DNA of 64,000 nucleotides, taken from NCBI GenBank assembly GCA_009379955.1, contig WHST01000014.1:1-64000 (forward strand), read 5' to 3'. This document shows, piece after piece, positions 9,636-33,129 of this stretch; position 1 is the first letter of the stretch, and each line of letters begins with the position of its first letter. Both the position numbers and the translations under genes were made by a program. The notes below the pieces were generated by a model that was not told the DNA's origin, did not search any database, and saw only the letters and a list, made by a program, of their open reading frames with translations. Origin of the DNA: Streptosporangiales bacterium. Lineage in GTDB: Bacteria; Actinomycetota; Actinomycetes; Streptosporangiales; WHST01.

Positions 9636-9681
9636 GAGCGGGTTACTGGAATCGAACCCGCATTGTCAGCGTGGGAGTCCG
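9636..9681 (+). repeat. att copy 1 (tRNA-Gly 3' end, diverged)
   Basis: About 46 bp matching the tRNA-Gly 3'-end repeat at 23541-23584, with four mismatches, and continuing into the same non-tRNA flank (TCCGAGC) seen at 23585. This is the most decayed of the copies and marks the left end of the stacked elements. Confidence 0.8.
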
Positions 9682-9738
9682 AGCAACGGTGCCTTTCGAG
9701 CGGTCGGTGTGCGTGATGGATCGTCCGTGAGCGCTGTC

Positions 9739-9781
9739 GAGTGACCGTGGCTGACCGTGCGTAACAGCACATCAATAGCAC
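9739..9781 (+). repeat. integrase arm-type sites, element 1
   Basis: Two GAC-type decamers (GAGTGACCG, GGCTGACCG) are followed by AACAGCAC at 9763-9770 and AATAGCAC at 9774-9781, spaced by 11 bp. The same arrangement occurs at 23647-23689 beside att copy 3, so element 1 was related to the AICE. Confidence 0.6.
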
Positions 9782-10683
9782 GGCGGTCGCTGCTGCTCAT
9801 CGTCGGCGAGAACCTCGTTCACGGTGTGTTGGCCGATGTGATCGAGCACGGGGTTGTCGGCCGAGTGAGCTGTCATGAGCAGGCCGAGGAGTAGTGCCCA
9901 GCCACGACCGCGCGCCCATGTCGCGTCGTCGACCGATAGCGCTGTCCGGAATACGTTACGGACGTCGGCGGAGAAGACCGTCCATGCGGCCATGACGTCG
10001 CAGGCGGGATCGCCCACGGCTAGGAGGCCGAAGTCGATGACCGCGGTCAACTGACCGTCTTCGACCAGCAGGTTGGCGGGATGGAGGTCGCCGTGGAACC
10101 ACACCGGCGGACCCTGCCATTGCGGAGCCGCCAGCGCGGCATCCCAGGCTGCGGTCACGGTGGTGACGTCGAATCGGTCACGGACGCTGTTGATGTCGGC
10201 GCGGGTGAACTGGTCGCGCGTCGCCAGGGGAACGCCGCGCAGCTCATTGCGGGGTCCGTTGGTGGTGGCGACTGTTCGAAGCGCCTTGATGAACCGGGCC
10301 AAGTCGAGTGCTGCCTGCCCCGGGTCGGCGAGGGGTGCGGCGGCCGCGATCTCGCCGTGCAGCCATCGGCATACGGTCCAATGCCACGGGTAGCCCTCCG
10401 CTGGTGTCCCCTTTCCGAGCGGTGCGGGAATGGCGAGTGGCAGCACTGGGACGAGCATCGGCAGCCACTGGTGCTCCTTCTCGACTTGTCCAGCGCTCAT
10501 GCCTCGGCGAGGCAGTCGTACGGCGAGGTCCGATCCGAGGCGATAGATGGCGTTGTCCCATCCGCTGGCGTCAACGGGCTGGATCGGGAGGTCTGCCCAC
10601 TGTGGGAACTGCGCATTGAGCAGTCGGCGCACCAGGGGCACGTCGATGTGTACCTCTGCGGCGGGCTTGTGACCTGCACTCAC
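9772..10683 (-). CDS. APH-family phosphotransferase
   Basis: A 303-residue kinase-like protein of the aminoglycoside phosphotransferase (APH)/choline kinase superfamily. The catalytic loop is FHGDLHPAN (196-204), the metal-binding IDFG is at about 216-219 and the GDPACD motif follows. It has the N-lobe ATP-site strand AIYRLGSDLAVRLPRR. Members phosphorylate aminoglycosides, macrolides or other hydroxyl substrates; resistance is possible but not shown. Its 3' end overlaps the arm sites of element 1, and it is likely element cargo. Confidence 0.8.
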   Translation of the reverse strand: MSAGHKPAAEVHIDVPLVRRLLNAQFPQWADLPIQPVDASGWDNAIYRLGSDLAVRLPRRGMSAGQVEKEHQWLPMLVPVLPLAIPAPLGKGTPAEGYPWHWTVCRWLHGEIAAAAPLADPGQAALDLARFIKALRTVATTNGPRNELRGVPLATRDQFTRADINSVRDRFDVTTVTAAWDAALAAPQWQGPPVWFHGDLHPANLLVEDGQLTAVIDFGLLAVGDPACDVMAAWTVFSADVRNVFRTALSVDDATWARGRGWALLLGLLMTAHSADNPVLDHIGQHTVNEVLADDEQQRPPCY

Positions 10684-10758
10684 GCGTATCCTTTCGTCGC
10701 CAGAGCCATTTTCGCGCCGCGAGGACGTGGAGAGTCGTGCCGACCCCTACTCTGCCCC

Positions 10759-10890
10759 GTCCTCCTCATAGGAGCCGCTCGTAGGCCGCAGCGGAGTGGG
10801 TCAAGGGGTCGAGCTTGCTCGATCGCGAAGCGACAAGAAGTGCCGTTGACGCGCGGAGTGAAGGCCGAAGACTGGTCCGGCGAGGAGGGC
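10759..10890 (+). repeat. structured ~130-bp repeat, copy A (four-way junction fold)
   Basis: Closely similar to 23708-23840. Outer stem GTCCTCCTC (10759-10767) pairs with 10882-10890 through one G-T wobble; a CCGCT/AGCGG hairpin spans 10775-10794; an inner stem at 10800-10807/10843-10850 encloses hairpins 10809-10822 (TCGAGC/GCTCGA) and 10823-10833 (TCGC/GCGA) and a shortened third one (10834-10842). It is non-coding on inspection and could be a structured RNA or single-stranded-DNA signal. Confidence 0.65.
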
Positions 10891-11075
10891 GGGACCGTGA
10901 CTCACGAAGCGTGATCTGTAGGAGCGAGCAATGCAAGGTCGGTCCTCTGCGCCAAGCAGGTAGCGGCGGCTTGCAGTGTCGTCTGGGTGAAACTTCGGCG
11001 GGTGCCGTTTGGGTTATGTTGGCGGCAGGTACCACCACCGTGCAGACGCCCAGTCGGTGTCCGGTGGTTGACTCG

Positions 11076-11748
11076 CTAGGGCAGCCGGGCCAGTACCCAG
11101 CCGTATAGGTTGAGCGCGACCTGAACGCGCCGTGGCGTGTCGGCGAGAAAGAGCTGCCGATAGAGGTTCTCCACGTTGGGAGGACCTGACAGGTCCCGCA
11201 GGTGGCGTCGCACTGAGCTGTTCGGGGGCAGTGGCAGGTTGTTGGCTGCCCACAGGCCCTCCATGAGCTGCCAGGAGGCGGTCGCGGTGACGAAGGCGGC
11301 CTTTAGTAAGTCGCCACCGCTCATGGCGACACGAATCTTCTCTGCGGGGGTGGCGAAGACGCTGGGCGAGGTCTGACTTTTGTTGGTCGGTAACCCGGTA
11401 GGTGTCGAAGCCATGCTGAGCGTGCTGTCTCAGCCGAGTGAGGACTCCTCCTGAGTCGTAGAGGATTCGCCCGTCGAGGTAGGCGTAGACATGCATCGGG
11501 TCTGACTCGAGATTCGCTCGCGCAGCTGGCTCATCGGCGTATCCGCGCTCCACCAGGATCCCGTCACGCGGTGCGTCGTGACGCGGCCTGCTCAGGCCGT
11601 CCGCGAGGATGAGCCGTAGGTCTATGTCGGTTCCGGGAAGCGCGTCGCCTCGCGCGAGTGAGCCAGTCAGAAGAAGACCGATCACGTCCTCGTCTCGCTT
11701 CGCTTCATCGACCAGCTCCCCCAACATGACGTCGTACGGCACGGACAT
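11076..11748 (-). pseudogene. frameshifted MNT-type nucleotidyltransferase
   Basis: The 5' part, from the ATG at 11748, encodes a nucleotidyltransferase domain with GSLARGDALPGTDIDLRL, the active-site strand and paired Asp residues. About 125 codons in, near 11350-11385, the sense continues in another frame (VFATPAEKIRVAMSGGDLL to LYGWVLARLP), ending at 11076. Read together the two parts make one protein of about 220 residues, so a single frameshift probably inactivated the gene. Related proteins are nucleotidylyltransferases for antibiotics or MNT-type antitoxins. Confidence 0.7.
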
Positions 11749-11860
11749 AGGTCGCCTCTCGTCGCGGGGACGTCGGTGCACCAAGATAGCCAGCTTGGAA
11801 GATGTGCTTCGCGCTGGTGCGTGCTCGTGCGTGGTGTTTGGTGTGGTGTTCTGTCCGTTG

Positions 11861-11912
11861 TTGACCGTGGCTGATCCCAGGCTGACCGTGACGTGTGGCC
11901 CTGATGTGGCCC
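11861..11912 (+). repeat. arm-site-like repeat cluster inside element 1
   Basis: Two related TGACCGTG-type motifs (around 11862 and 11883) are followed by TGTGGCCC at 11894-11901 and again at 11905-11912, spacing 11 bp. The layout copies the arm-site clusters at 9739 and 23647. A CAGCTTGGAAGATG stretch near 11790 resembles the tRNA core. It may be a further buried element end. Confidence 0.4.
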
Positions 11913-11949
11913 ACATATGCCGAGCGGGGAGTGTCTAGGGTTGGTGGAT

Positions 11950-12384
11950 ATGACGCAGAGTGTGCTCCCCGACCCCAGCACTCCGTTCGGCGAACGGGTC
12001 CTGCGCCGGTTGCGCGAGGAACGGGTCATCTGGATCATCACGATCGACAAGGACGGCACTCCACAGCCGAACCCGGTCGGGTTCCTGCTCCAGGACGACA
12101 ACTCGATCCTGATCTACAACGACGCCAAGGCGAACCGGATCAAGCATGTCATCGATCGGCCCCGGGTGGCCCTGCATTTCGACGGCGACGGCGCCGGCGG
12201 TGACATCGTGGTCTTCACGGGCACCGCGAGCCCGGCGACGGACGTTCCGCCGGCCCACGAGAACCCGGTTCACATCGCCAAGTACGGCGATGAGGCGGCC
12301 CGGGTGTTTGGCAGCGTGGAGAAGTTCAGCGAGAGGTTCCCAACGCCACTGCGGATTGAGATCACGCGGACTCGGGGCTTGTAG
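11950..12384 (+). CDS. PPOX-class F420-dependent protein (TIGR03667-like)
   Basis: A 144-residue split beta-barrel protein of the pyridoxamine-phosphate-oxidase-like class. RVIWIITIDKDGTPQPNPVG (about 23-42) and the NRIKHVIDRPRVALHF segment match the F420-binding TIGR03667 subgroup. Such proteins use F420, a cofactor typical of actinomycetes, for reductions of unknown substrates. ATG 11950 was chosen over earlier in-frame codons because upstream residues are unlike the family. It lies in element 1 as apparent cargo. Confidence 0.8.
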   Translation: MTQSVLPDPSTPFGERVLRRLREERVIWIITIDKDGTPQPNPVGFLLQDDNSILIYNDAKANRIKHVIDRPRVALHFDGDGAGGDIVVFTGTASPATDVPPAHENPVHIAKYGDEAARVFGSVEKFSERFPTPLRIEITRTRGL

Positions 12385-12740
12385 TGGGGTGAGAGCGCTT
12401 GTCTGCCAGGCGATTGCTGCTGACCGTTCCCCTCCCTCACCCGATAGGTGCCGAACCAGCCGAGACGGCGTCGGGGTCCAGGGATCAGCGGGAAGATGTT
12501 TCCGGCCCCGGAGTCCTCGCACGAGCGGTAGCGGTCGATCGACGAGTGAGGCTGTGGCCGGAAAGATCTTGTCGCCCTGGACGCCGAGGACGGCTCGGCG
12601 CACACTCCGGGCGTCGGGCGAGGGGGAACCCACCTGAACGTGTCGTGAGCGGCCGTTGTGCGGGCTCCTGGTGGCGCATGTGGCCGACTGCTTGCTCGGG
12701 TTGCCTTGTCTGGTTCAGGTTGCGTCCGGTGGCTGGCCGC
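12385..12740. other. stretch without a recognised gene
   Basis: About 350 bp after the PPOX gene in which I see no credible start, domain or RNA. Open frames here are GC-driven. It leads into the REP-like hairpins and att copy 2; an integrase for element 1 would be expected here and is absent. Confidence 0.4.
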
Positions 12741-12801
12741 GCCGTCCGTGGACGGCCCCCAGGCGCCCGCGGCGGCGGCGGCCAGCGCGCCGCAGGCGCG
12801 C
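12741..12801. repeat. REP-like multi-hairpin, copy 1
   Basis: GCCGTCC/GGACGGC (12741-12756) is followed by a GGCG-rich middle stem and a GCGCGCC/GGCGCGC hairpin (12785-12801), then CTTGAT. The same three-hairpin order ending in CTTGAT occurs at 24968-25034. Confidence 0.5.
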
Positions 12802-12841
12802 CTTGATGGAGTAGAGCCGGTTTCGGCAACCAAGATCGTTT

Positions 12842-12876
12842 GGAGCGGGTGACGGGAATCGAACCCGCATTGTCAG
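12842..12876 (+). repeat. att copy 2 (tRNA-Gly 3' end)
   Basis: 35 bp identical to the tRNA-Gly 3' end at 33057-33091, then a different flank. It marks the junction between element 1 and element 2. Confidence 0.85.
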
Positions 12877-12972
12877 TGCGGATGAGGTTCGTACGGGCAG
12901 GTTCACCGTAGTACGTCTGTGCAGGTCAGGCCGGATACGTGGACCTCCGCGAACCCGGACGGCACCCCATGA

Positions 12973-12992
12973 ACTGCAACCAGGACTGCAAC
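12973..12992 (+). repeat. integrase arm-type sites, element 2 far end
   Basis: ACTGCAAC at 12973-12980 and 12985-12992, spacing 12 bp. The same pair (ACCGCAAC, ACTGCAAC, spacing 12) occurs at 23459-23478 at the other end of element 2. Confidence 0.6.
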
Positions 12993-13119
12993 TCCCGTCG
13001 ACCACCCGGGAAGGAGGCGCAGGCGCTCCCCAGAGCGCCAAGAGACCAGAGCGGCCCCGGCCGGTGCAGCAACACCGAGCCGAGGCCTCGATCGACACCG
13101 TAGGAAGAAGGCCCCGATC

Positions 13120-13512
13120 GTGAACACGAGTCTGACATCCCATGCCCGCCCCGACTACGCCCGCTGCCGCGACTGCCCCGCCTGGTGCGGCGGACATGCG
13201 GCCGGCGACCCCGACGACGACGGCACCACGCACAGCGCGTTCGTTCCCGAGCTCTCCCTGCTCGAGATCCGCAACCATGTCCGCGGCCAGGTCGAGCGGC
13301 CGGGCGGCGACACGGTCGGGCTGTGCCTCCGGCAGGAGAGCGACCCCGACGGACCGGGGAACCTCAACATCCCGCTGCTCTACGTCGACGTCTCCGGCCG
13401 GGGACGCATCCCCGGCCAGCGACAGTCCGTCGAGGTGCAGATCACCAGCGGGGAAGCGCGGTCGCTGGCCAGCATGCTGGTCGCGCTGGCGGACCGGCTC
13501 GACCTCGCTTAG
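13120..13512 (+). CDS. DUF6907-like protein
   Basis: A 130-residue protein. Two N-terminal cysteine motifs (CRDCPAWCGGH, about 16-26) precede an acidic HSAF segment, a central beta region and a C-terminal helix (ITSGEARSLASMLVALADRL), the pattern of DUF6907 proteins common in actinobacterial mobile and accessory DNA. GTG start with an AGGAAG ribosome-binding site. Role unknown; it is the first gene inside element 2's left end. Confidence 0.65.
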   Translation: MNTSLTSHARPDYARCRDCPAWCGGHAAGDPDDDGTTHSAFVPELSLLEIRNHVRGQVERPGGDTVGLCLRQESDPDGPGNLNIPLLYVDVSGRGRIPGQRQSVEVQITSGEARSLASMLVALADRLDLA

Positions 13513-13521
13513 CACGCCGCA

Positions 13522-13558
13522 CCAACCAGCCGGGTGCTCTGAGCACCCGGCTGGTTGG
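13522..13558. terminator. 18-bp palindromic hairpin
   Basis: Arms 13522-13539 and 13541-13558 are perfect complements around a single base. The hairpin ends 20 bp before the Nudix start and just after the DUF6907 stop. A terminator is most likely. Confidence 0.7.
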
Positions 13559-13578
13559 CGTCCCGGTACGGTCGTCGT

Positions 13579-14124
13579 GTGTCCAGCGACCACGACCCGA
13601 CGCAGTGGACGATCCATGGCGAGCGACTCGTCGACGAGAACCGGCACATCCGGCTGAGCGTGGCGTCGGTGACGCTGCCCGACGGCGTCGAGTTCGACCA
13701 GTACGTCATCAGGATGCCGCGATGCGCGATGACCGCCGTCGTCGACGAGCAGCGCATCCTGCTGATCCGGCGGCACCGGTGGATCATCGACCGGTGGGTG
13801 TGGGAACTGCCCGGCGGCTACGTCGACCACGTCGAGGACGGCGCTCTCGCGGCGGCGCGGGAGGTGGAAGAGGAGACCGGCTGGCGGCCGACCGGGCCGA
13901 TCGATTTCGTGATGACCTACCAGCCCATCATCGGCTCAGGTGACTGCCCGCAGGACCTCTACGTCGCGCACGGCGCCGAGCAGACAGGAGCGGCACCGGA
14001 CATCAACGAGGCCGCCGACGTCGCGTGGTTCCCGGTCGCCGACGTGCCGGCGATGGTCGCCGCTGGGGAGGTCGTCGGCGCGGCCACGATCATCGCCGCG
14101 CTGCACCTGCTCCGTTCACCGTGA
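13579..14124 (+). CDS. Nudix hydrolase (ADP-ribose pyrophosphatase-like)
   Basis: A 181-residue Nudix protein. The Nudix box (GX5EX7REUXEEXGU) is complete in GGYVDHVEDG followed by REVEEETGW, so it should hydrolyse a nucleoside-diphosphate derivative with Mg2+. The N-terminal strands resemble ADP-sugar pyrophosphatases (WELPGGY). I chose the GTG at 13579. Its 3' end overlaps the convergent regulator gene by 35 bp. Confidence 0.85.
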   Translation: MSSDHDPTQWTIHGERLVDENRHIRLSVASVTLPDGVEFDQYVIRMPRCAMTAVVDEQRILLIRRHRWIIDRWVWELPGGYVDHVEDGALAAAREVEEETGWRPTGPIDFVMTYQPIIGSGDCPQDLYVAHGAEQTGAAPDINEAADVAWFPVADVPAMVAAGEVVGAATIIAALHLLRSP

Positions 14125-15475
14125 GCGCGCGCGTCTGCTCGACGAACGCCTGGACTATGGGGACTTCGGCATACGGGCCAAGCGCGGCGTGCAGCTCGGA
14201 GAGCCGGCGGCGGGCGCGCCGCGACTTCACGTCGGCGGCGAGACCGGCGGCCTGACTGCCGACCGAGCAGGCTTGCTCGACCTCGCCCTGCTGAGCGTGG
14301 ATGGTGGCGAGCAGCGTGACGTTGAACGTCTCGCCGCGGGTGTACCCGTCGACCATCCGCAGCGACCGGCGCGCGTGATCCTCGGCGGCGGCGAAGTCGC
14401 CGAGGTCCCGCAGCGCGTGCCCGAGCTGCGCGGCCAGGTAGGCGGCGTCGTAGTAGCCGATCCACGCTGGCGCGGCGCCGGGATCGTGCCGGTCGAGGGC
14501 CCGCTCCGCGGCCGCGGTGGCGCGGACGGCGGCGGTCCGGTCGCCGAGCGCTGCGAGGGCGCGGGCCTCGGTGACCAGGGCCTCGCTGACCAGGGCGGGC
14601 ACGGCGGCCTTGCGTGCGGACACCAGGGCAGCGCGGGCGAGGTCGACGGCGTCGCCAGGTCGGCCGACATACTGCGCCTGCTGACTCATCGCGGCGAGAA
14701 TCTCCCCGCCGAACCCGAAGTCACCCGCCGTGCGGGCGAGCCGCAACGCCTGGATCATGTACCGCTGCGCAAGGCCGTGCTGCTCAAGGTCGTACGCCAT
14801 CCAGGCGGCAAGGTGGGTGAGCTCGGCGACAGCGGCGAACAGGTCACGACCGACCTGCTCGGGGTACTGCCCGGCGAGCAGTGGCGGCACCTCCTCGTGG
14901 AGGTACTTGACCACCATCGACCGGGTGTGTCCGCCGCCCCAGCGGTTGTCCAGGCGTCGGAACAGCGCGGTGACCTCACGCATCGCGGCGACGTCGACCT
15001 GCCCGACACGACGTGACCCGGTGCCGGTCGGCGGCGGGTCGTTCGGCGCGGTCAGCCACCGCACGGCGGGGGCTGCGAACGCGCCGGCCGCGTACGTGGC
15101 GTCGACGAGGAACCCTCGCCGTTGCAGGTCGCCGTGCCAGAGCTGCGACGCCGTACGCAGACCCTCGGGCCACGCGAGCGCGAAGTCCAGGCCGAGATCC
15201 GGCCGGACCGCCGCCGGCCGCATCCCCACATCCGCGGGAGTCACCGCACGGCCAAGTAGCGCGGAGAGAACCTCGGCGATCAGGTCCGGTGTTGGCGGTC
15301 GCGGCAGCTGGCCAGCAAGCCACCGGATCACCGAGCTGTGGTCGTAGGTCATGTCCCGCATGCCGTAGGCGCGCCCGGCATCGTTGACCCGCCGGGCGAA
15401 TCCCTTGTTCGAGCACCCGGCCTCGACGAGCAGCCGATGCAGCTGCCCGTTCGGTTCCCGCGGTCTGCGTGCCAT
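14090..15475 (-). CDS. HTH regulator with TPR-type C-terminal domain
   Basis: A 461-residue regulator. The first ~70 residues form a DNA-binding domain (GCSNKGFARRVNDAG then DHSSVIRWLAG), and from about 170 onward helical repeats of TPR type follow (for example ALVTEARALAALGDRTAAVRA). This layout is common in streptomycete-type regulators that sense peptides or act with adjacent small genes. The ATG at 15475 gives a proper HTH start; the upstream extension is unrelated. Placement in element 2 suggests control of island genes. Confidence 0.75.
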   Translation of the reverse strand: MARRPREPNGQLHRLLVEAGCSNKGFARRVNDAGRAYGMRDMTYDHSSVIRWLAGQLPRPPTPDLIAEVLSALLGRAVTPADVGMRPAAVRPDLGLDFALAWPEGLRTASQLWHGDLQRRGFLVDATYAAGAFAAPAVRWLTAPNDPPPTGTGSRRVGQVDVAAMREVTALFRRLDNRWGGGHTRSMVVKYLHEEVPPLLAGQYPEQVGRDLFAAVAELTHLAAWMAYDLEQHGLAQRYMIQALRLARTAGDFGFGGEILAAMSQQAQYVGRPGDAVDLARAALVSARKAAVPALVSEALVTEARALAALGDRTAAVRATAAAERALDRHDPGAAPAWIGYYDAAYLAAQLGHALRDLGDFAAAEDHARRSLRMVDGYTRGETFNVTLLATIHAQQGEVEQACSVGSQAAGLAADVKSRRARRRLSELHAALGPYAEVPIVQAFVEQTRALTVNGAGAARR

Positions 15476-15659
15476 CGCCCGCCCCTCGACGTGCCTCCCG
15501 AGTCTGGCACACCTACCTGTAGTCCACCTGTCTGCGCGACGCACGCACGCCCCCCGGTGCACACACCCGCCCCCGACGCACGCACTCCCGCTCACGCCGT
15601 CACCGATGCAGGCTCACGACCATGCGCGACTTAGTCTGGGAGTGACTGGGGGCACCGAA

Positions 15660-15785
15660 GTGAGCGAGGACCAGGCGACGCCGACCGAGGGCGACGAGGA
15701 GCGGTGCAAGCCGCACGACAACCGGGAGCCGTGCCCGATGTGCCTCGCCGAGAAGTACCGCGTCCCCGTCTGGAACTCCATCTGA
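15660..15785 (+). CDS. small acidic Cys-containing protein
   Basis: A 41-residue open frame (GTG start, GGGGG upstream) ending EPCPMCLAEKYRVPVWNSI. The CxxC with an upstream Cys-Lys-Pro-His could bind zinc. It is divergent from the HTH-TPR regulator, a position where short companion genes of such regulators are common. Function unknown. Confidence 0.5.
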   Translation: MSEDQATPTEGDEERCKPHDNREPCPMCLAEKYRVPVWNSI

Positions 15786-16022
15786 GCTGGTGGACCGGCC
15801 GTCGCGGCGCCCCGACAGTGCGGCCGGTTCACCGCGAGCGGCGTGGCGGTCGGCACTGCTGTCCCCCAGGACACCCGCCGGCCGTCACGTCCCGGCCCTC
15901 GACGGGACAGGATTGGACCCCTCGGACCCGTCGGGGGCTCGAGATCTTCAGGACGAGCGCGTATCCCCGGACGGTCGTAGGTCGTTGCCTGAACGAACCA
16001 TGTTCGCATCTGCCCACTGAGG

Positions 16023-16373
16023 ATGATGGAGACCCGCGTGATCAAGACCGATGCCGACAACCAGCTCCTTTGTCCCAGTTGTGGCGCGGAGTGGGTGCAC
16101 ACCGACATCGTGTACGTGTCTGCTCGACACGAGGACGGGTCATTCAACGAGATCTCGGTGAACGGCGTCACAGGCCAGGTCGTCACGAACCGGCCAGAGC
16201 CCGGTCCCGTCGGGCCAACCCAGAACGAGGGTCGTCGCCACCGCATGGCCGTCACCGGCTGGTGTGAGCACTGCCCCGGTCGCTTCGCATTGGTGTTCAC
16301 TCAGCACAAGGGCGTGACCTTCGTGGAGACGGTCTCCGCAGGTGACCGCTCGGTTCAGGGCGATCCCGTCTGA
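16023..16373 (+). CDS. hypothetical zinc-ribbon-like protein
   Basis: A 116-residue protein with two CxxC pairs (LCPSCGAEW near 16-24 and GWCEHCPGRF near 79-88) that could form one zinc ribbon around an insertion. The ATG follows GAGGATG. No family recognised. It lies in element 2 cargo. Confidence 0.55.
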   Translation: MMETRVIKTDADNQLLCPSCGAEWVHTDIVYVSARHEDGSFNEISVNGVTGQVVTNRPEPGPVGPTQNEGRRHRMAVTGWCEHCPGRFALVFTQHKGVTFVETVSAGDRSVQGDPV

Positions 16374-16434
16374 CCCTCGGGAGCACGGCCACGGCCGCCT
16401 CACGGGACCGTTCGACACCGCCCGACCGGTACGG

Positions 16435-17148
16435 CTAGCGTGCTGACGCGGGTCGCGGGTCGGTCACGAAGGCAAGGAACGCGTTGCCCATCTCGGTCGT
16501 CCGCTCTGCGGTCAGGCCTTGCCCGGTCATCATCCCGTGCAGGCTGCCCGTGTTGGTGAACCCGGCGGCTGCGATGTCGGCGAACAACCGGTCGTAGAGG
16601 TCGCGTCGGCCCTTGAGCTCCGGGATGCCGCGCTCGATGATGTGGCTCAGGCCTCCCGCGCTGAGGTTCGGCCATGCGAGACCTCGGCTGGCGTACCAGT
16701 CGAGCGGGTTCGCGAGCAGTCTCAGAAGACGGAGGTGCGACGGCGTGAAGTCCCGTACGTACCGCAGGAACATCGCTCTCGTGTCACTGTCGAGGTCGCT
16801 CGGTAGCGCCGAGTTGAGTACCGCGTTGCGGAGTGCGTCGAGCTTGTCCTGCTGGCCCGTCGCGGTCGCTGACGCCGTTGCATGCGCCAGAGCGTCGAGG
16901 AACTCCGTGTTCTGGGCGAGGCTCTCCGCGGTGAGCTCGTCGACCTGGTCGAGCAGATCCTGGACTGCCTCGGTGATGTCCTTCTGCCACTGCTCGCGCC
17001 GCTTCTCGTACGCGGCACCGACCACGGCGGCCCAGATAACGGCGACCGGCCCGCCGACCACCGGCACTGCCGAGAGCCCGGCTTCGATGATGGTGGCGGC
17101 GACGGCCTTGTCTGTCGACCTCTCCGGCGGGTCACTGATGGCGTTCAT
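16435..17148 (-). CDS. hypothetical protein with hydrophobic N-terminal segment
   Basis: A 237-residue protein. After a short polar start there is one hydrophobic stretch (about 17-46, containing SAVPVVGGPVAVIW), then an acidic helical region and a C-terminal globular part with RDFTPSHLRLLRLLANP. The glycine-rich membrane-like segment followed by a soluble domain recalls accessory proteins of phage-defence islands, but I recognise no family. It is on the minus strand at the end of the element 2 operon, 147 bp from the next gene. Confidence 0.55.
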   Translation of the reverse strand: MNAISDPPERSTDKAVAATIIEAGLSAVPVVGGPVAVIWAAVVGAAYEKRREQWQKDITEAVQDLLDQVDELTAESLAQNTEFLDALAHATASATATGQQDKLDALRNAVLNSALPSDLDSDTRAMFLRYVRDFTPSHLRLLRLLANPLDWYASRGLAWPNLSAGGLSHIIERGIPELKGRRDLYDRLFADIAAAGFTNTGSLHGMMTGQGLTAERTTEMGNAFLAFVTDPRPASAR

Positions 17149-18071: not shown

Positions 18072-18073
18072 GT

Positions 18074-23840: not shown

Positions 23841-23852
23841 GGCCTCTGCGAC

Positions 23853-25619: not shown

Positions 25620-25658
25620 CCTGGGCTCCCTCTATGCACGCGTCTCGACTGCGAGGGC

Positions 25659-26087: not shown

Positions 26088-26124
26088 GTTCGCCTCCCTT
26101 GCTGGCCCGTATGGCTACTCTGTC

Positions 26125-26136
26125 GTCTAGAGGAGT
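26125..26136. promoter_or_regulatory. KorSA-type operator, divergent promoter region
   Basis: GTCTAGAGGAGT lies 36 bp before the GntR start. It is the exact reverse complement of ACTCCTCTAGAC at 27009-27020, so the regulator probably binds here for autoregulation and for control of the Nudix gene. Confidence 0.6.
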
Positions 26137-26171
26137 GAAAGTACCAGGAACTTTCGACTAGGGGAGCGTCA

Positions 26172-26948
26172 GTGGCTCTTGGCAGCGTGGACACGGCGAG
26201 CGACCGCTCCGTGTTCCAGCAGATCGCGGATCAACTTCGCGAGGAGATCACGCGCGGGCGCCTTGGCGCGGGGGAACGGCTGCCCTCTGAGGCTGCGCTA
26301 ATCGATCACTACGGCGTGGCGCGGATGACGATCCGGCAGGCGTTGGGAGTGCTCAAGAGTGAGGGCCTGGTCGTTGCCGAGCATGGGCGCGGGGTGTTCG
26401 TGCGGCCTCGGCCGGTGGCTCGGCGGCTGGGTAGTGACCGGTTCGCGCGGCGGCACCGGGAGGCCGGTCATGCGGCGTTCGTGGCGGACGCGAAGGCCGC
26501 GGGGCAGCAGCACTCGGTGGACAACGTGCGCATCGATCGAGAGAAGGCTCCCACTGATGTCGCCGAGCTGCTCGGCGTGGACGGCCGCAAGAAGGTCGTG
26601 GTCCGGCGCCGGCGGTACCTGCTCGACGGGCATCCGGTCGAGGTCGCGGCCTCGTACATCCCGCTGGACGTCGCAGGAGGGACGAAGATCGAGGAACCCG
26701 ACACTGGTCCGGGTGGGATCTACGCCCGGATGGAGGAGCAGGGCTACACCTTCGGCCCGTTCCACGAGGACATCAGGGCGCGGATGCCGACGCCGGAGGA
26801 GATCACCGCGCTACAGCTCGCGCCCGGTGTCCCGGTCCTTGATCTCGTCAGAGTCGCCCGCGACGCGAGCGGGCGGGCTCTGGAGGTCTGCGAGACGGTC
26901 ATGGCTGCCGACTCGTTCGTGCTGAGCTACGACCTGCCCGCTAAGTAG
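26172..26948 (+). CDS. GntR/UTRA-family regulator, KorSA-like
   Basis: A 258-residue regulator. The winged helix (LREEITRGRLGAGERLPSEA then GVARMTIRQALGVLKSEGL, about 22-64) is followed by a UTRA ligand-binding domain. In pSAM2-type AICEs, KorSA is a GntR repressor of replication, transfer and its own gene; the matching operators here are at 26125, 26989 and 27009. GTG start after GGGGAGC. It faces the Pif-like gene and precedes the transfer operon. Confidence 0.85.
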   Translation: MALGSVDTASDRSVFQQIADQLREEITRGRLGAGERLPSEAALIDHYGVARMTIRQALGVLKSEGLVVAEHGRGVFVRPRPVARRLGSDRFARRHREAGHAAFVADAKAAGQQHSVDNVRIDREKAPTDVAELLGVDGRKKVVVRRRRYLLDGHPVEVAASYIPLDVAGGTKIEEPDTGPGGIYARMEEQGYTFGPFHEDIRARMPTPEEITALQLAPGVPVLDLVRVARDASGRALEVCETVMAADSFVLSYDLPAK

Positions 26949-26971
26949 GCTGCCTCCGTTCCGTGTGTCGC

Positions 26972-27020
26972 TTGACACCGCTTCGCCAACTCCTCTATAC
27001 ATGTGGTAACTCCTCTAGAC
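26972..27020 (+). promoter_or_regulatory. transfer/replication operon promoter with two KorSA-type operators
   Basis: TTGACA (26972-26977), 18-bp spacer, TATACA (26996-27001). Two operators, ACTCCTCTATAC (26989-27000) and ACTCCTCTAGAC (27009-27020), lie exactly 20 bp apart over the -10 and start region, so two dimers could bind on one face and block RNA polymerase. Confidence 0.65.
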
Positions 27021-27054
27021 GTGCAGAGGAGACGACAAGCGGAGGTAGTGACTG

Positions 27055-27513
27055 ATGGCGATTCAACGTGGTGAGCGGTTCCCGGTGGCGTTCGAGCACG
27101 CGTTTCCGAAGGGCCTTGTCCTGATCGGGGATGTGGAGGCTTCGACGGAGTACCAGTCGCAGGAGGACCGCAACCGTGGCCGTGAGGCCAAGCAGCGCGT
27201 GGACGAGCGGTCGGGCAAGCGGATCTGGAAGGCCGTGGCGACCGACCCGGACGAGGGACGGGCCAAGCGGGCGTCGTTCGAGATCCAGTTCATCGCCGAC
27301 GTGCAGCCGGTCCCGCCCGGTGACGAGGTGCTGCCGGGCATGCGCCCGATCGCCCTCGACGGCCTGCATGTCGAGCCGCACGTGACCGGTCAGGGCGAGT
27401 ACAAGTCCCTAGCGTTCCGGGTCTGGGCGACCGGCTTCGCCGACCCCAAGGCCGCGTCTCGCTCGCGGTCGCAGTCCGGGCAGGGCTCGCAGGGTAAGGA
27501 GCAGGCGGCATGA
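27055..27513 (+). CDS. conserved AICE protein, first gene of transfer operon
   Basis: A 152-residue protein with an N-terminal beta-rich part and a Ser/Gln/Arg-rich tail. It contains DEGRAKRASFEIQFIADVQ. The position just after the KorSA-type promoter and before the small genes and traB matches the first operon gene of other AICEs, but I cannot assign it to a described activator such as Pra. GGAGG ribosome-binding site. It overlaps the next gene (ATGA). Confidence 0.6.
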   Translation: MAIQRGERFPVAFEHAFPKGLVLIGDVEASTEYQSQEDRNRGREAKQRVDERSGKRIWKAVATDPDEGRAKRASFEIQFIADVQPVPPGDEVLPGMRPIALDGLHVEPHVTGQGEYKSLAFRVWATGFADPKAASRSRSQSGQGSQGKEQAA

Positions 27514-27788
27514 CGGCCCGGAGGCGTGAGCTGGCGGTGACCACGAACGTGCACCTGCGCGCGGGTATGCCGTTCGGTGTGACGGCCTTCGACGCCAACG
27601 ACCGGCGCGGGCCGTTCGTCAGTGTCGACCTCGGTGACGGCTTGACCACGGTGTCGCTGTTCATCGAGGACGAGGACACCGCCAACCGGCTCATCGCGGT
27701 CGCGGGGGAGGCGCGGGCGAAGCTCGTCGGCGCGATGACTCGCGCGAGGCAGGCTGAGTCCGGTCAGCCGGAGCTGATTGCTTCCTAG
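27510..27788 (+). CDS. small AICE protein
   Basis: A 92-residue protein. The strand pattern VSVDLGDGLTTVSLFIEDEDTANRL is followed by a C-terminal helix. It overlaps the previous gene by 4 bp. It is a small accessory gene of the AICE operon; function unknown. Confidence 0.6.
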   Translation: MTARRRELAVTTNVHLRAGMPFGVTAFDANDRRGPFVSVDLGDGLTTVSLFIEDEDTANRLIAVAGEARAKLVGAMTRARQAESGQPELIAS

Positions 27789-27870
27789 AGCGGCGCGGCA
27801 GCGGTGAAGGATTCCAGGCCCGCCGCTGCCGCGCCTTCCACACCACACCCCCAGAGAGGGCGTAGCAGGC

Positions 27871-28212
27871 ATGTCCCAGCGTAGAAGCAGCAACCACGTG
27901 CCGCCGGAGCCGGAGCAGCCGGCGATGTTCACCTACCGCGTCGACCAGGTCGCCAAGAATCTCGCCCTGGGCGACAAGCCGAAGTGGCGGTACCCGTGCG
28001 GGCTGTGCAACGGCTCCCTGGTGTCCGAGCCGGGCGGGCTGTGCTCGACGTGTGCACCGACCCCGCCTCGGTCGCGGCGCAAGACCGCGAAGCCTCGTAC
28101 CGCGAAAAAGACCACCACCGCCAAGACGACGAAGACGAGTGAGTCGAGTGGTCGGCCTCGGGCGAAGCGGGTCCCGCCGTGGGACCGGGTCGCGGACGGT
28201 GGTGCGTCATGA
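27871..28212 (+). CDS. AICE zinc-ribbon protein with basic tail
   Basis: A 113-residue protein. A CGLC...CSTC pair (about 48-66) can bind zinc, and the C-terminal third is a Lys/Thr/Arg-rich tail (KPRTAKKTTTAKTTK) likely to bind DNA. Stop overlaps the traB start (ATGA). It may help the translocase or the initiator act on DNA. Confidence 0.6.
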   Translation: MSQRRSSNHVPPEPEQPAMFTYRVDQVAKNLALGDKPKWRYPCGLCNGSLVSEPGGLCSTCAPTPPRSRRKTAKPRTAKKTTTAKTTKTSESSGRPRAKRVPPWDRVADGGAS

Positions 28213-29747
28213 GAGGCGTCGCCTACAAGAAGCCCTCCCCGACGGTGCGGGCGGAGTCGTTCCGGATCGGGTTCTGGACCGTCCTCGGCGGCACGATCGC
28301 CGCTGGGATCGGGCGTGTCGTGTGGTGGCTGGTCCGGCAGTGGCCGGTCTGGCTTGTCGTCGGGCTCGGCTACGCCGCCTGGCGGGTGCACGCCCGGTTC
28401 GACACCCACGGCCTGTCACTGGCCGCTCTCGCCCTGGTGACGGTGCTGGTGGCCTGGCGTGTACTGCACGCCCGGTCGTTCAAGCTCGTCGTGTCCTGGC
28501 CGCTGCGGTCATGGTGGCGCCGCGTCGCCCGGTATGGACGGGGCTGGGACGAGCTGGTGGCCGTCACCGGCCTGGTCAAGCCGTTCCGTGGCCGCGAGCT
28601 CGCCCCGGTGCTGGGGCGGTGCAGGTCGACCGACACCGTGGACCGGCTCCGCGTCCGCACCCTGCGGGGTCAGGTGCTGGCGGACTACGCGGGCAACGCG
28701 GAGCGGTTCGCCGCGTCCAACGGTGCGATTGACTGCCGCGTCCGGTCGGTCCGCACCCCGGTCATCCGGTTCCGAGGGAAGACCCTGGTCCGGTCGCGGG
28801 TCGTGCCGCGCCTGCTGGAGCTGTGGTTCCTGGTCACCGACCCGCTACGGGACCCAGTCGCACTGTTCCCGATCCCGGACAAGCCGAACCTCCACCGCCT
28901 CCGCGTCGCTCACCGCGAAGACGGCCTCCCGTGGCATCTGCGACTCCGGGGCACCCACGTCCTGGTGGCTGGTCGCACGGGGGCGGGGAAGGGCTCGGTG
29001 TTGTGGTCGATCGTCCGTGCGCTCGCCTCGGCGGTGCGGGACCGGTGGGTCGAGCTGTGGGTCGTCGACCCCAAGGGCGGCATGGAACTCGCCGCCGGAC
29101 AAGGCCTGTTCGCCCGGTACTGCTACGGCGACAACAACACCGACGACGAAGGCCGCAAGCGCGCGTATCAACTCGACTTCGCTGAGTTCCTGGAAACCCT
29201 TGTCGACCGGATGCAGGAACGGCAACGGGACCTGCGGGGCGTGTCCCGAACGCACAAGCCGCGGCCGGGTGACCCGCACATCGTCGTGCTGATCGACGAG
29301 CTGGCGTGCCTGACCGCGTATGTGACGGATCGGGAGGCGAAGAAGCGGATCGAAGCCGCCCTCGGACTCCTCCTCAGTCAGGGCCGCGCGGTCGGCATCA
29401 CCGTCGTCGCCGCGCTGCAAGACGCCCGGAAGGAGGTGCTGCCGGATCGGGGGCTGTTCCCGACCCGGATCGGGCTGGCGGTGAACGAGCCGGAGGAGAC
29501 CGACCTGGTCCTCGGCTCGACGGCGCGGAAGAACGGTGCCCGCTGTGACGAGATCTCCGAGGACACCCCTGGTGTGGCGTTCGTCGCGGTGGAGACCGAG
29601 AAGGAACCCGTCCGGGTCCGGTTCGGCTACGTCGACGACGAGGAGATCACCCGCCTCGCCGTCACCTACCCACCCGGCGCCGCCCCGGTCGACCCGTATC
29701 CCAGCGATCCCACGCACACCGAGACCCGGCAGGAGGACCAGTCATGA
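28209..29747 (+). CDS. TraB/TraSA-type FtsK/SpoIIIE DNA translocase
   Basis: A 512-residue protein. Two to three hydrophobic segments occupy about 22-88; Walker A AGRTGAGKGS (254-263) and Walker B VVLIDELACL follow in an FtsK/SpoIIIE ATPase domain. In AICEs this single hexameric protein moves double-stranded DNA between mycelial compartments. The ATG overlaps the upstream stop (ATGA), and the end overlaps the next gene, so it lies in the transfer operon. Only one tra gene is expected in such elements. Confidence 0.88.
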   Translation: MRGVAYKKPSPTVRAESFRIGFWTVLGGTIAAGIGRVVWWLVRQWPVWLVVGLGYAAWRVHARFDTHGLSLAALALVTVLVAWRVLHARSFKLVVSWPLRSWWRRVARYGRGWDELVAVTGLVKPFRGRELAPVLGRCRSTDTVDRLRVRTLRGQVLADYAGNAERFAASNGAIDCRVRSVRTPVIRFRGKTLVRSRVVPRLLELWFLVTDPLRDPVALFPIPDKPNLHRLRVAHREDGLPWHLRLRGTHVLVAGRTGAGKGSVLWSIVRALASAVRDRWVELWVVDPKGGMELAAGQGLFARYCYGDNNTDDEGRKRAYQLDFAEFLETLVDRMQERQRDLRGVSRTHKPRPGDPHIVVLIDELACLTAYVTDREAKKRIEAALGLLLSQGRAVGITVVAALQDARKEVLPDRGLFPTRIGLAVNEPEETDLVLGSTARKNGARCDEISEDTPGVAFVAVETEKEPVRVRFGYVDDEEITRLAVTYPPGAAPVDPYPSDPTHTETRQEDQS

Positions 29748-29995
29748 CCCCCACCGACACGATCACCCTGGACGGGTCGTGGATCGAGGAGACCCGCGAG
29801 ACGGTCATGGACGGGTTCGACTGCGGGGTGTGCCTGGACTTCGGGTACCTCGACGGCCTGGGGCCGTGCCCGCACTGCGATCCCGACGGCTACGCCGAAC
29901 ACGTCCACTGCGCCACCCAGGCCAGACCACAGTTCGGGCTCGACGGTGCCGACCCGTGGGCCGACTCGCCCGATCTGGTATGGGTGCGGTCATGA
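29744..29995 (+). CDS. small AICE zinc-finger-like protein
   Basis: An 83-residue protein with two CxxC pairs (CGVC and CPHC, about 27-45). It overlaps traB (ATGA) and the rep gene (ATGA). Similar short Cys proteins lie between tra and rep in other AICEs, with unknown role. Confidence 0.6.
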   Translation: MTPTDTITLDGSWIEETRETVMDGFDCGVCLDFGYLDGLGPCPHCDPDGYAEHVHCATQARPQFGLDGADPWADSPDLVWVRS

Positions 29996-31518
29996 CGGCG
30001 ATCACCCTCGACGTCATCCGCGCCGCCGCCGAGATCGAGGGCGTGTGCGTCCGGCCGATCGTGTCCCACCTACATGACGTGGAGACGGGCAAGAAGCGGC
30101 TGGTGCCGATCCCGTGCGGCTCGACTCGGGAGGCGCAGTGCCCGCCGTGTGCGGACAAGGCCCGGAAGTTGCGGATGCAGCAGTGCCGGGAGGGCTGGCA
30201 CCTCGACACCGAACCCGACCCTCCCGAGCACGACGAGGACGACGGTTACGGCGAGGACGCCGAGGACCAGGCCGACGACGCCGACGGGGGGTCGGAGCGG
30301 CGGGTCCGGTCGACTCGGCGTCGCCAGGACGCACCCGACCTGCCGTCGTACGAAGTCGAGGCCCGCACGGTCGGGCAGGTGTTCACCACCGACGGCGGCA
30401 AGACGTACCGGCCGTCGATGTTCGCCACGATGACGCTCCCGTCCTATGGGCGGGTTCGGTCGGACGGGACTCCGGTAGATCCGGGCTCGTACGACTACCG
30501 GCAGGCTGCCTTGGACGCGATGCACTTCCCGAAGCTGGTGGACCGGTTCTGGCAGAACCTGCGCCGTGCGGTCGGGTACCGGGTGCAGTACTTCGCTGCC
30601 GTCGAACCCCAGCGGCGTCTCGCGCCGCACCTGCATGCGGCGATCCGGGGTGCGATCCCTCGCGTGGTGATGCGGCAGGTCATTGCCGGGACCTATCACC
30701 AGGTGTGGTGGCCCGCGTTCGACGAGCCCGTCTATGACGATGAGGAGCTACCCGGCTGGGATCACTCCGCCGGCGGCTATGTCGACCCCGATACCGGGGA
30801 GTTGCTGCCGACCTGGGAGCAGGCCCTCGATCGGCTCGACACCGACCCCGACGCCCGACCTGGGCACGTGGTCCGGTTCGGGGAGCAGACCGACCTGCAA
30901 GGCATCCTCGCCGGGACCTCGCAGGCCGATCGGCGGGTGGGGTACCTGTGCAAGTACCTGAACAAGTCGATCGCCGACACCCATCCCGACGAGGAGCCCT
31001 CGGCACGGCGTTCCGCGCATGTCGATCGGCTGTGGGAGCAGGCCCGGTGGCTGCCGTGCTCGCCTCGGTGCGGGAACTGGTTGCGCTACGGCGTGCAGCC
31101 CAAGGACGCACGGCCCACGTTGGAGCCGGGCAGGTGTCGGGGGAAGGCGCATCGGCGGGACACGCTCGGGTGTGGTGGTCGTCGGGTGTTGGTGTCGCGG
31201 CAGTGGACCGGCAAGACCCTCACCCAGCACAGGGCCGACCGGGCTGCTGTCGTCCGGGCCGTGCTCGAGGAAGCCGGGATCGAGGCTCCCGACGTCGACC
31301 GGTACTCGACCAAGGTCACCACGGCTGACGGGCGGCCTCGGTTCGTATGGACCGCCGTTCGCGCCCACGAGGTACCTGCCTACCGGGAGCTGCTGCTCGA
31401 CCTGCTCAAAGAGCGCCAACGCTGGCGCGGGCAGTACGAGGACGCCAAGCAACGCGCCGGGCCACCGGGTCGGGATCTTTCGGCAACCGAGGAAGCCGCC
31501 GAGGAGGTGGCGGCATGA
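29992..31518 (+). CDS. RepSA-like rolling-circle replication initiator
   Basis: A 508-residue initiator. Motif 1 is MFATMTLP (about 143-150), the metal-binding HUH-like motif is APHLHAAIRG (211-220), and the catalytic tyrosine region is RVGYLCKYLNKS (315-326, Tyr318/Tyr322). An acidic linker (about 77-100) separates a Cys-containing N-terminal part. It nicks the element's origin and primes rolling-circle replication after excision. Tightly coupled to neighbours by overlaps; no origin was identified by eye. Confidence 0.85.
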   Translation: MTAITLDVIRAAAEIEGVCVRPIVSHLHDVETGKKRLVPIPCGSTREAQCPPCADKARKLRMQQCREGWHLDTEPDPPEHDEDDGYGEDAEDQADDADGGSERRVRSTRRRQDAPDLPSYEVEARTVGQVFTTDGGKTYRPSMFATMTLPSYGRVRSDGTPVDPGSYDYRQAALDAMHFPKLVDRFWQNLRRAVGYRVQYFAAVEPQRRLAPHLHAAIRGAIPRVVMRQVIAGTYHQVWWPAFDEPVYDDEELPGWDHSAGGYVDPDTGELLPTWEQALDRLDTDPDARPGHVVRFGEQTDLQGILAGTSQADRRVGYLCKYLNKSIADTHPDEEPSARRSAHVDRLWEQARWLPCSPRCGNWLRYGVQPKDARPTLEPGRCRGKAHRRDTLGCGGRRVLVSRQWTGKTLTQHRADRAAVVRAVLEEAGIEAPDVDRYSTKVTTADGRPRFVWTAVRAHEVPAYRELLLDLLKERQRWRGQYEDAKQRAGPPGRDLSATEEAAEEVAA

Positions 31519-31745
31519 CGACGGAGAGGCACGACACGGAACGGCTGTTGACGGTGGAGCAGGCAGGCGAGCTGCTCGGCACGAACGGGCCCCGGTTCCC
31601 TCGGCGGCTGATCGCGGAGCGGCGTATCCGGTTCGTGCGGGTCGGACGGCATGTGCGGATCCCGGAGTCGGCGGTGCGGGAGTTCGTCGACGCCAACACG
31701 GTCGAGCCCATCGTGCGGGACCGCTACGGACGGGCGGTGGCCTGA
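31515..31745 (+). CDS. xis: excisionase (AlpA/Xis-type) of the AICE
   Basis: A 76-residue HTH protein: LLTVEQAGELLGTNG then RRLIAERRIRFVRVGRHVRI and an Ile-Pro-Glu-Ser segment, the standard excisionase pattern. It overlaps rep by 4 bp and touches int by one base (TGATG). The rep-xis-int order is that of pSAM2-like AICEs. Confidence 0.85.
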   Translation: MTTERHDTERLLTVEQAGELLGTNGPRFPRRLIAERRIRFVRVGRHVRIPESAVREFVDANTVEPIVRDRYGRAVA

Positions 31746-32965
31746 TGGCGAAGCGGAAGGGACGTCGTCGGTTCGGCTGGGTGCGGAAGCTGCCCTCGGG
31801 TCGCTACCAGGCGAGCTATCTCGGTGCGGACGGTCTCCGGCAGAACGCGCCGCACACCTTCGCCAGCAAGGACGAGGCGGGGGACTGGCTCACCCTGCGC
31901 GAGGCCGATCGGGTGCGTGGCGATGCACCACCGGCGAGGCGGGGAGCTATGCCCTTCGGGCCCTACGGCCGTGAGTGGGTCGACGAGCGTTCGGGACTGC
32001 GGCCGCGCACGGCTGACCTCTACCGCTGGCTGCTGGTCAAGTACCTGGACTCGTTCGAGTCGGTGCACCTGGTGGACATCGACCCCGCAGCCGTACGGCG
32101 GTGGCGGGCGAAGCTCCTACGCGGCGGTGTTTCGGCAACGATGGTGGCGAAGGCGTACCGGCTGTTCCGCGCGATCATGATGACGGCCGCCGAGGATGAC
32201 GAGCTGATCGTGCGCAACCCGTGCCGGATCCGTGGTGCGGGCACCGAGACACCGACCGAGCGACCCGTGCTGACTGTCGCGCAGGTCTACGCCCTCGCCG
32301 ACCGGATGCCCGCGCGGCTCCGAGTGCTGGTCCTGCTGGCGACGTTCGGGAGCCTGCGCTTCGGTGAGGTCACCGCGTTGCGGCGTCGAGACGTCGACCT
32401 CGACGAGCGGAAGGTGCAGGTTCGTCGGGCGTTCACGGAGGTTCGGGGGCAGGGCCTGGTCGCCGGTCCGCCGAAGTCGCGCGCAGGCGTCCGGACGGTC
32501 TCGCTCCCGGCGGCGGTGATCACGGACCTGCGCCGCCACCTGGCCGAGCACACCAAGGCGGGCAACGATGCCCTGGTCTTCACCGTCCCGAACGGGTCAC
32601 CGGTACGACGGGGAAACTTCAACAAGGTGGTCGGCTGGCGGGACGCGGTCGCCGCGATCGGGGCAACCGGCCTGCACTTCCACGACCTGCGGCACACGGG
32701 CAACACCCTCGCTGCCGACGCCGGGGTGAGCACGCGGAACCTCATGGCTCGGATGGGACACGACAACGAGCGGGCGGCGCTGATCTACCAGCACGCGACC
32801 GCGAAGGCCGATCGGCTGATCGCGGACGTCCTGGACGCCCAGGTCCGTGCGGAGCGTACGAACAAGACCACAAAGCGCGGTCGGAAGCAGTCGACCCGAT
32901 CGAACTCGGACGAGGACGACGAACCGGACGAGGGGGCAGCGGGTGTGCTCGTGCCGACCGGCTAA
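31745..32965 (+). CDS. int: tyrosine integrase of the AICE
   Basis: A 406-residue tyrosine recombinase with all catalytic residues: Arg in GSLRFGEVTALR, Lys in PPKSRAGVRTVSLP, the His-x-x-Arg box HDLRHTGNT, MGHDN and Tyr in ALIYQHAT. It carries an N-terminal SAM-like core-binding domain and a Lys/Asp/Glu-rich tail. The intact frame contrasts with the amber-broken integrase of element 2. It ends 94 bp before the tRNA, which is its attachment site. ATG start overlaps xis by one base. Confidence 0.92.
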   Translation: MAKRKGRRRFGWVRKLPSGRYQASYLGADGLRQNAPHTFASKDEAGDWLTLREADRVRGDAPPARRGAMPFGPYGREWVDERSGLRPRTADLYRWLLVKYLDSFESVHLVDIDPAAVRRWRAKLLRGGVSATMVAKAYRLFRAIMMTAAEDDELIVRNPCRIRGAGTETPTERPVLTVAQVYALADRMPARLRVLVLLATFGSLRFGEVTALRRRDVDLDERKVQVRRAFTEVRGQGLVAGPPKSRAGVRTVSLPAAVITDLRRHLAEHTKAGNDALVFTVPNGSPVRRGNFNKVVGWRDAVAAIGATGLHFHDLRHTGNTLAADAGVSTRNLMARMGHDNERAALIYQHATAKADRLIADVLDAQVRAERTNKTTKRGRKQSTRSNSDEDDEPDEGAAGVLVPTG

Positions 32966-32982
32966 CAGCACGCGAACAGCAC
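32964..32982 (+). repeat. integrase arm-type sites, AICE right end
   Basis: AACAGCAC at 32964-32971 and 32975-32982, spacing 11 bp, starting in the int stop codon. It matches the pair 23671-23689 at the left end. Confidence 0.65.
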
Positions 32983-32995
32983 GAGGGACGACGAA

Positions 32996-33024
32996 GGCGC
33001 CTACCGCCGAACCGGGTAGGCGCC
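32996..33024. terminator. hairpin between int and tRNA-Gly
   Basis: GGCGCCTAC (32996-33004) pairs with 33016-33024 across a short loop. On the minus strand the stem is followed by TTCGTCGT, so it would end tRNA transcription; it also lies after int. Confidence 0.65.
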
Positions 33025-33058
33025 GGCTCTCGTTGCTGCGTAAGGGTTTCGAGTTGGG

Positions 33059-33129
33059 AGCGGGTGACGGGAATCGAACCCGCATTGTCAGCTTGGGAAG
33101 CTGATGTTCTACCACTGAACTACACCCGC
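33059..33129 (-). tRNA. tRNA-Gly(CCC), attachment site of the stacked elements
   Basis: A 71-nt tRNA on the minus strand, 5' end at 33129. The acceptor stem is GCGGGTG/CACCCGC, the D arm GTTC/GAAC, the anticodon stem TCAGC/GCTGA around loop TTCCCAA (anticodon CCC, reading GGG), and the T arm GCGGG/CCCGT with loop TTCGATT. The terminal CCA is not encoded. Its 3' half (33055-33099 in window order) is repeated at 23540, 12842 and 9636, and the AICE integrase lies next to the 3' end. Confidence 0.95.

Follow-up and report, generated by a model that had tools for sequence, protein, structure and literature searches.

The 64,000-nucleotide window analysed here (positions 1 to 64,000 of contig WHST01000014.1, assembly GCA_009379955.1, from a Streptosporangiales bacterium) contains a tandem series of integrated elements behind one tRNA gene. 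ARAGORN places this gene, the sole tRNA of the window, on the minus strand at 33057–33129 and identifies it as a tRNA-Gly with anticodon CCC (Rfam RF00005, 74.5 bits). It acts as the attachment (att) gene. A blastn comparison of the tRNA with the window showed that its 3′ half recurs in part three times, always on its 3′ side and in the same orientation as the tRNA, with E-values of 5e-13 to 4e-9. These copies are the outer att cores of three units, E1 to E3, counted outwards from the tRNA; coordinates below are for features listed on the plus strand unless stated otherwise. The E1 core (23540–23584, start 23540 or 23542) is identical to the tRNA over 45 bp, the E2 core (12842–12876) is identical over 35 bp and divergent after that, and the E3 core (9635–9676, start 9635 or 9636) has about 4 mismatches over 41–46 bp. 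A preliminary description of this DNA had given the core coordinates and identity counts correctly, as the blastn search and the alignment of the cores to the tRNA confirm. Its proposal of tandem accretion at the tRNA 3′ end is borne out by the same-orientation cores delimiting E1, E2 and E3. Its count of three stacked elements holds for these units and is incomplete, since the right end of a probable fourth element lies left of 9635.

Chance repeats were rejected as the source of the core copies on the strength of E-values reaching 5e-13. Elsewhere in the whole 6.6-Mb assembly, only two contigs, C136 and C175, have notable matches to the tRNA, and these fall at other tRNA-Gly-like sites. Rfam models applied to 8600–33500 returned the tRNA plus one sub-threshold chance match and nothing else, and a search of phage and plasmid records for close DNA matches was uninformative. 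tRNA-Gly(CCC) carries an accretion array of the already known kind built by actinomycete integrative and conjugative elements (AICEs).

E1 (23542–33056), the unit next to the tRNA, is a typical, intact AICE and probably the most recently placed of the window's elements. Its tyrosine integrase (31745–32965; Pfam Phage_integrase 4e-15) adjoins the tRNA and has its full 406 aa, in agreement with the earlier claim of an intact integrase in the AICE next to the tRNA. Upstream lie an Xis-like HTH_17 protein (31515–31745), a RepSA-type replication initiator (29980–31518; Pfam RepSA 4e-96, below the cut-off of the NCBIfam RepSA equivalog model), an FtsK/TraB-type transfer protein (28209–29747; Pfam FtsK_SpoIIIE 2e-9, NCBIfam TraB 8e-6 and under that model's cut-off) and a GntR/UTRA regulator (26172–26948). 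E1 thus combines the features by which AICEs are recognised, namely an integrase and Xis beside the att site, a RepSA-type initiator, an FtsK/TraB-type transfer protein, att repeats and a restored tRNA. This gene set is also found at tRNA-Gly(CCC) in relatives within the order, with full-length integrases 42–71% and Rep proteins 46–73% identical to those of E1. A DUF6414 protein encoded at the left end of E1 (23853–24833, minus strand) is candidate cargo.

The left arm of E1 contains two CAGCACG repeats 11 bp apart (23673–23690), candidate arm-type sites, and the repeat pair recurs at the right end of the element (32966–32983). The conserved, strongly folding region B (23689–23863) is a candidate single-strand origin or structured RNA. 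Its DNA fold (23705–23845) reaches –45.4 kcal/mol with z = –5.1 against shuffles, and its ends are complementary (CCGTCCTCCTC...GAGGAGGACGG). The genome holds three copies of region B, all within E1-type elements; to call it a single-strand origin is a guess.

E2 (12842–23541) encodes an integrase, an Xis-like HTH_17 protein, an AAA_25 protein, a NUDIX protein and a regulator, as assigned from Pfam domains. Its integrase gene (22124–23488) is split by a TAG codon at 22820–22822, both halves being otherwise open, and Phage_integrase matches the C-terminal half, which is about 30% identical to the C-terminal part of the E1 integrase. The scanned E2 proteins gave no Pfam match to RepSA or FtsK/TraB, and tblastn found no match to the E1 Rep and FtsK proteins; because these two functions were not found, we call E2 an integrative element only and not an AICE. 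Among six examined relatives of the E2 AAA protein, five have an integrase 0.6–2.6 kb away, once beside a tRNA-Pro. We regard E2 as an integrative element unrelated to E1 with a broken integrase.

E3 (9635–12841) is a cargo unit without an integrase. At its left, the core and arm (9678–9784) are about 76% identical to the left end of E1 (E = 7e-26), a similarity that spans the core plus about 105 bp. An APH-type phosphotransferase gene (9772–10641, minus strand; Pfam APH 3e-39), 31% identical to an APH cassette in genome G015, lies between this arm and a second copy of region B (10741–10909, 86% identical to 23689–23863). Beyond it follow a nucleotidyltransferase-like gene (11017–11916, minus strand; Pfam NTP_transf_2 5e-6), whose reading frames indicate a frameshift near 11330, and a PNPOx-type gene (11950–12384). 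The E3 right end is of a different type from that of E1, and we therefore regard E3 as composite. With ends that do not belong to one element family, E3 does not qualify as a cis-mobilizable element (CIME).

The E3 core itself is flanked on both sides by E1-type sequence. Its right flank resembles the left end of E1, and its left flank (9609–9634; 85% over 9609–9676 including the core) resembles the E1 right end, in a 118-bp alignment with E = 1e-17. The presence of E1-type arms on both sides suggests that a fourth element, E4, once ended there. We read E3 and the trace of E4 as cargo-bearing, integrase-less relatives of E1. Left of the core, at 8756–9634, an Imm5-like open reading frame and an apparent alpha/beta-hydrolase fragment are possible E4 cargo. 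A third E1-type left end stands at another tRNA-Gly-like core on contig C136 of the same genome (L028 in G000, 3725–4698), where core and arm are followed by about 700 bp and then by region B. From these three copies (E1, E3 and C136), E1-type elements seem to have room for cargo between the left arm and region B, a slot occupied by the APH gene in E3 and vacant in E1.

On the other side of the tRNA, the nearest genes found in the window are of LysE and tyrosine-phosphatase type, and in many relatives this tRNA has dcd (dCTP deaminase) and a PhoU-like gene in its vicinity (alignment A2). The genes right of the window's tRNA are not adjacent to the same tRNA in the congener G001, so host-flank synteny gave no empty-site comparison.

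Cores of this type are common in the order. We detected an exact pattern for non-tRNA cores, one that an intact tRNA cannot match, in 103 of 250 genomes of the order and in 23 of 57 genera, a prevalence independent of the threshold and selection choices described below; the backwards pattern, used as a control, occurs in 0 of 250. When 346 genomes were drawn class-wide, 34 of them from the order, 1 of the 312 outside the order had the pattern, a rarity that may reflect its tuning to this tRNA sequence. A name scan with the exact core also returned Micromonospora, Actinoplanes and others. The att core covers the 3′-terminal ~43 bp of the tRNA as far as the anticodon loop. As many as eight extra cores occur per array, and in all arrays scanned they are directly seen to share one orientation, the opposite strand having none. 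The fragmentation of the window's assembly into 225 contigs could speak for chance similarity or an assembly artefact; with E-values down to 5e-13, an empty pattern control and arrays in the single-contig genomes G015 and G049, we consider this explanation negligible.

In the complete genome G015, none of 20 other tRNAs has more than one extra 3′ copy in its neighbourhood, against five at tRNA-Gly(CCC). Stacks at every tRNA were thereby rejected in the one genome tested, where single insertions elsewhere are common: seven of the 20 (L228, L229, L230, L234, L239, L243 and L244) have one extra 3′ copy each, 0.8 to 14 kb away, and some of these copies surround small units without a full integrase.

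Division of the arrays from core to core yielded 179 units, of which 28 contain a full integrase (median 10.6 kb), 38 a partial one and 113 none (median 1.2 kb). Of the last group 85 are under 2 kb and 71 under 1.5 kb, the latter being too short for a full integrase plus cargo. "Integrase-less" here means without a tblastn match to 11 queries, taken from the same loci, so that larger units may hold an unlike recombinase. The core threshold varied by pass (blastn E of 1e-4 and 1e-3; at most 8, later at most 10 mismatches), many arrays were chosen for extra cores already visible and others through the exact-core scan, duplicate loci were removed by hand, and genes were called with a simple codon-bias script. 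We accordingly treat the numbers, ranks and cargo shares of the units as descriptive, their statistics not having been set up beforehand.

Most integrase-less units have a left end of AICE type. A left end of at least 60 bp, in register, is directly seen to be common to 90 of 112 integrase-less units and an integrase-bearing element of another genome, whereas interior controls gave 2 of 109 at 300 bp inside and 1 of 104 at 450 bp inside. Right ends of integrase-less units match integrase-bearing elements in only 24 of 113. The motif TGASCTGSG, picked from a k-mer table of the same data, is present in 104 of 170 left ends, 69 of 170 right ends and 5 of 170 midpoints, a distribution as would be expected for integrase arm sites.

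We compared 11 pairs of integrase-less units that match between genomes over nearly their full length, together with their neighbours. The sharing of such units from core to core is a direct observation. In the clearest case, the 918-bp unit of L050 and L064 is 95.3% identical between two genera (g11 and g15), its rank being 3 in G021 but 1 in G040; similarity stops near the cores, neither neighbour is homologous and the host flank is 84.6% identical. In L201/L212 the unit is 98.7% identical and the host flank 86.0%, with an 8% scrap of similarity in the outer neighbour and none in the inner. L204/L206 (98.5%, host flank 89.3%) has an unrelated outer neighbour, and L200/L208 (97.1%) an unrelated inner one. 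Outside the order, L087/L105 (Paractinoplanes/Actinoplanes) is 94.9% identical with a host flank of 78.8% and an unrelated outer neighbour; both units abut the tRNA, their inner side being host DNA. Both neighbours are unrelated in three of the 11 pairs (L050/L064, L050/L210 and L041/L211), and two further pairs show at most 8% neighbour scrap (L201/L212 and L050/L053). The remaining pairs comprise two that are clean on the sole measurable side, three partly related on one side (one at 72%) and one with host DNA on one side.

These comparisons bear on the simplest alternative, in which the small units shrank in place from full AICEs by ordinary accretion and decay and never move alone. The 38 units with a partial integrase and the concentration of full-integrase elements beside the tRNA are in line with it, as is the Streptomyces precedent of a traB-less remnant (PMC9513070). 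However, the best shared units are 95–99% identical across hosts whose flanks are 79–89% identical, and because integrase-less units agree to this degree from core to core, they are very unlikely to have shrunk independently to identical endpoints. We therefore judge decay alone to be an unlikely account. Units could also spread by homologous recombination at the cores and conserved ends, the integrases having made only the repeats; on one side, core plus left end offer a homologous stretch of about 160 bp. As right ends rarely match, little beyond the 43-bp core is left on the other, and we regard this route as improbable.

The cargo of the small units is distinctive. Pfam searches of 111 small-unit proteins identified 10 of Gp49/HigB type, 11 HTH_3, 6 PIN, 3 DUF5615, 3 DUF433 and 2 APH. 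Among the 25 families listed for 111 host-flank proteins from beyond the tRNA (dcd, PhoU_div and other housekeeping families), none of the small-unit families just named occurred, a rough contrast rather than an enrichment test, as this control repeats orthologues of few genes. As read directly from this content, toxin-antitoxin genes abound in the small units, which carry one or two cargo genes, often as toxin-antitoxin pairs. PADLOC matches of the cassette proteins were mainly to generic HTH models and were not used as evidence of defence.

Position within an array carries some information on age. The higher the rank of a core, the more mismatches to the tRNA of its host it tends to have (n = 133, Spearman rho 0.34, P = 6e-5; cores within one array are not independent), and within single arrays the trend is weak, with 11 rising and 5 falling of 21. 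Full-integrase elements occupy rank 1, adjoining the tRNA, in 20 of 25 cases compared with 22 of 79 for integrase-less units (Fisher P = 5e-6). The preliminary rule that the youngest element lies nearest the tRNA therefore survives as a tendency in related arrays and fails as a strict rule; the window itself offers three points only. Position is a statistical clock at best, because an excising AICE re-exposes older units.

Lack of an integrase, by comparison, is not a mark of age, since integrase-less units are found at every rank, 22 arrays having one at rank 1, and some occur intact in more than one host. We rejected E3 as simply the most decayed AICE: the absence of an integrase and the frameshifted cargo gene had been described correctly, whereas the step from there to "oldest" does not hold. 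Likewise, E2 does have the amber codon reported for its integrase, but the age drawn from it does not follow. A single TAG in an otherwise open frame probably reflects recent inactivation or a read error and not great age. The 35-bp E2 core was also rejected as an age sign; its shortness may be due to the different integrase.

Taken together, we consider it probable that the locus is an accretion array and that its counterparts in related genomes are arrays of non-autonomous cassettes built by AICE integrases. In this model, an AICE tyrosine integrase would recombine the att core of the element with the tRNA and restore the gene, each insertion shifting earlier ones outward in a single orientation. 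The same process in related genomes would yield cassette arrays, whose small units keep AICE-type cores and ends. Cassettes would spread as whole blocks, presumably with AICEs supplying integrase and transfer functions, either in trans or to composites of AICE and cassette. More tentatively, and with somewhat less than an even chance in our view, tRNA-Gly(CCC) in this order could anchor an integron-like gene capture in which non-autonomous single-gene cassettes with AICE ends are cut out and inserted in trans by AICE integrases and moved across genera, typically with toxin-antitoxin passengers.

Transfer in cis only is a credible though rather doubtful competitor: composites of AICE and cassette would travel, the AICE excising later and the cassette staying behind. 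Mobilisation in cis after accretion is documented for other integrative and conjugative elements (ICEs; PMC5704250), AICEs adjoin cassettes in many arrays, and the neighbours of a few shared pairs are related. Against it, no neighbours are common to the clearest shared cassettes and integrase-less units lie at the tRNA in 22 arrays, neither point being decisive.

Several observations weigh against the model of integrase-built cassettes. We infer excision, mobilisation in trans and insertion order from comparison of genomes, and units could also have become shared by homologous recombination at cores and ends, or by cis transfer followed by loss of the AICE. Inner neighbours are about 30% related in L204/L206 and L208/L211. 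The outer neighbour in L200/L208 is 72% related; here two units may have moved together, so that blocks can be larger than one unit. The L041/L211 unit is 82% identical beside a host flank of 81%, and hence shows no recent exchange. The case for movement of single units thus rests mainly on L050/L064 and L201/L212. In the window, the evidence for E4 amounts to about 26 bp beyond the core, and the right end of E3 is without a match to that of E1. Comparison with congeners is limited, the G001 contig ending inside an E1-type AICE and G002 being incomplete.

The window directly fits tandem AICE accretion of the Streptomyces and Frankia type. Accretion of AICEs at a tRNA-Arg is described in Streptomyces (PMC9513070), and tandem AICEs are known from Frankia (Fean5518/Fean5534) and S. 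avermitilis (Sav3708/Sav3728) (PMC3218068). As there, different AICEs sit at one tRNA between direct repeats, with unlike integrases using one site and a remnant unit. However, those reports have at most three elements plus a remnant, whereas relatives in the order have up to eight extra cores, and their units are mostly integrase-less one- or two-gene blocks, some of which recur in different hosts. The ssrA islands of Dehalococcoides also stand in tandem behind an RNA gene, with more than 12 direct repeats of its 3′ end and 15 islands without an integration module, a part often absent here too (PMC3146451). They differ in using ssrA instead of tRNA-Gly, Ccr-like recombinases and rdhA cargo, and the passages of PMC3146451 consulted describe no single-gene blocks shared across genera.

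The integrase-less units resemble CIMEs (definition in PMC5704250, citing Pavlovic 2004) in having att sites, no integration or transfer genes and an adjoining ICE. All 113 units without an integrase match are of this att-flanked make-up, transfer genes having been searched for with the E1 Rep and FtsK proteins in the first set of loci. Unlike CIMEs, which are described as decayed ICEs, the units in the relatives are very small and numerous and recur intact in several hosts.

Integrons likewise hold cassette arrays of one- or two-gene units, rich in toxin-antitoxin genes and added at an anchored end, and the arrays described here share this growth of small toxin-antitoxin-rich units at a fixed point. 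The E1 integrase is not of IntI type, however, scoring 28 bits against an NCBIfam cut-off of 265. Moreover, cargo genes lie in both orientations (100 versus 72) and not in the uniform one of integron cassettes, the site is half of a tRNA gene and the integrase resides on a conjugative element; this comparison leaves aside folded attC sites, for which no search was made. Searches of open-access papers, with most subscription journals outside their reach, found no report of such tRNA cassette arrays in this order. The tandem AICE stack is a known arrangement, and the cassette arrays of its relatives look new as a variant of it. Their insertion order, cassette exchange and toxin-antitoxin spread can be tested by genome comparison. 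If the model is correct, one tRNA forms a roughly time-ordered archive of gene flow, and actinobacterial conjugative elements sustain tiny passenger cassettes much as transposons sustain their miniature derivatives.

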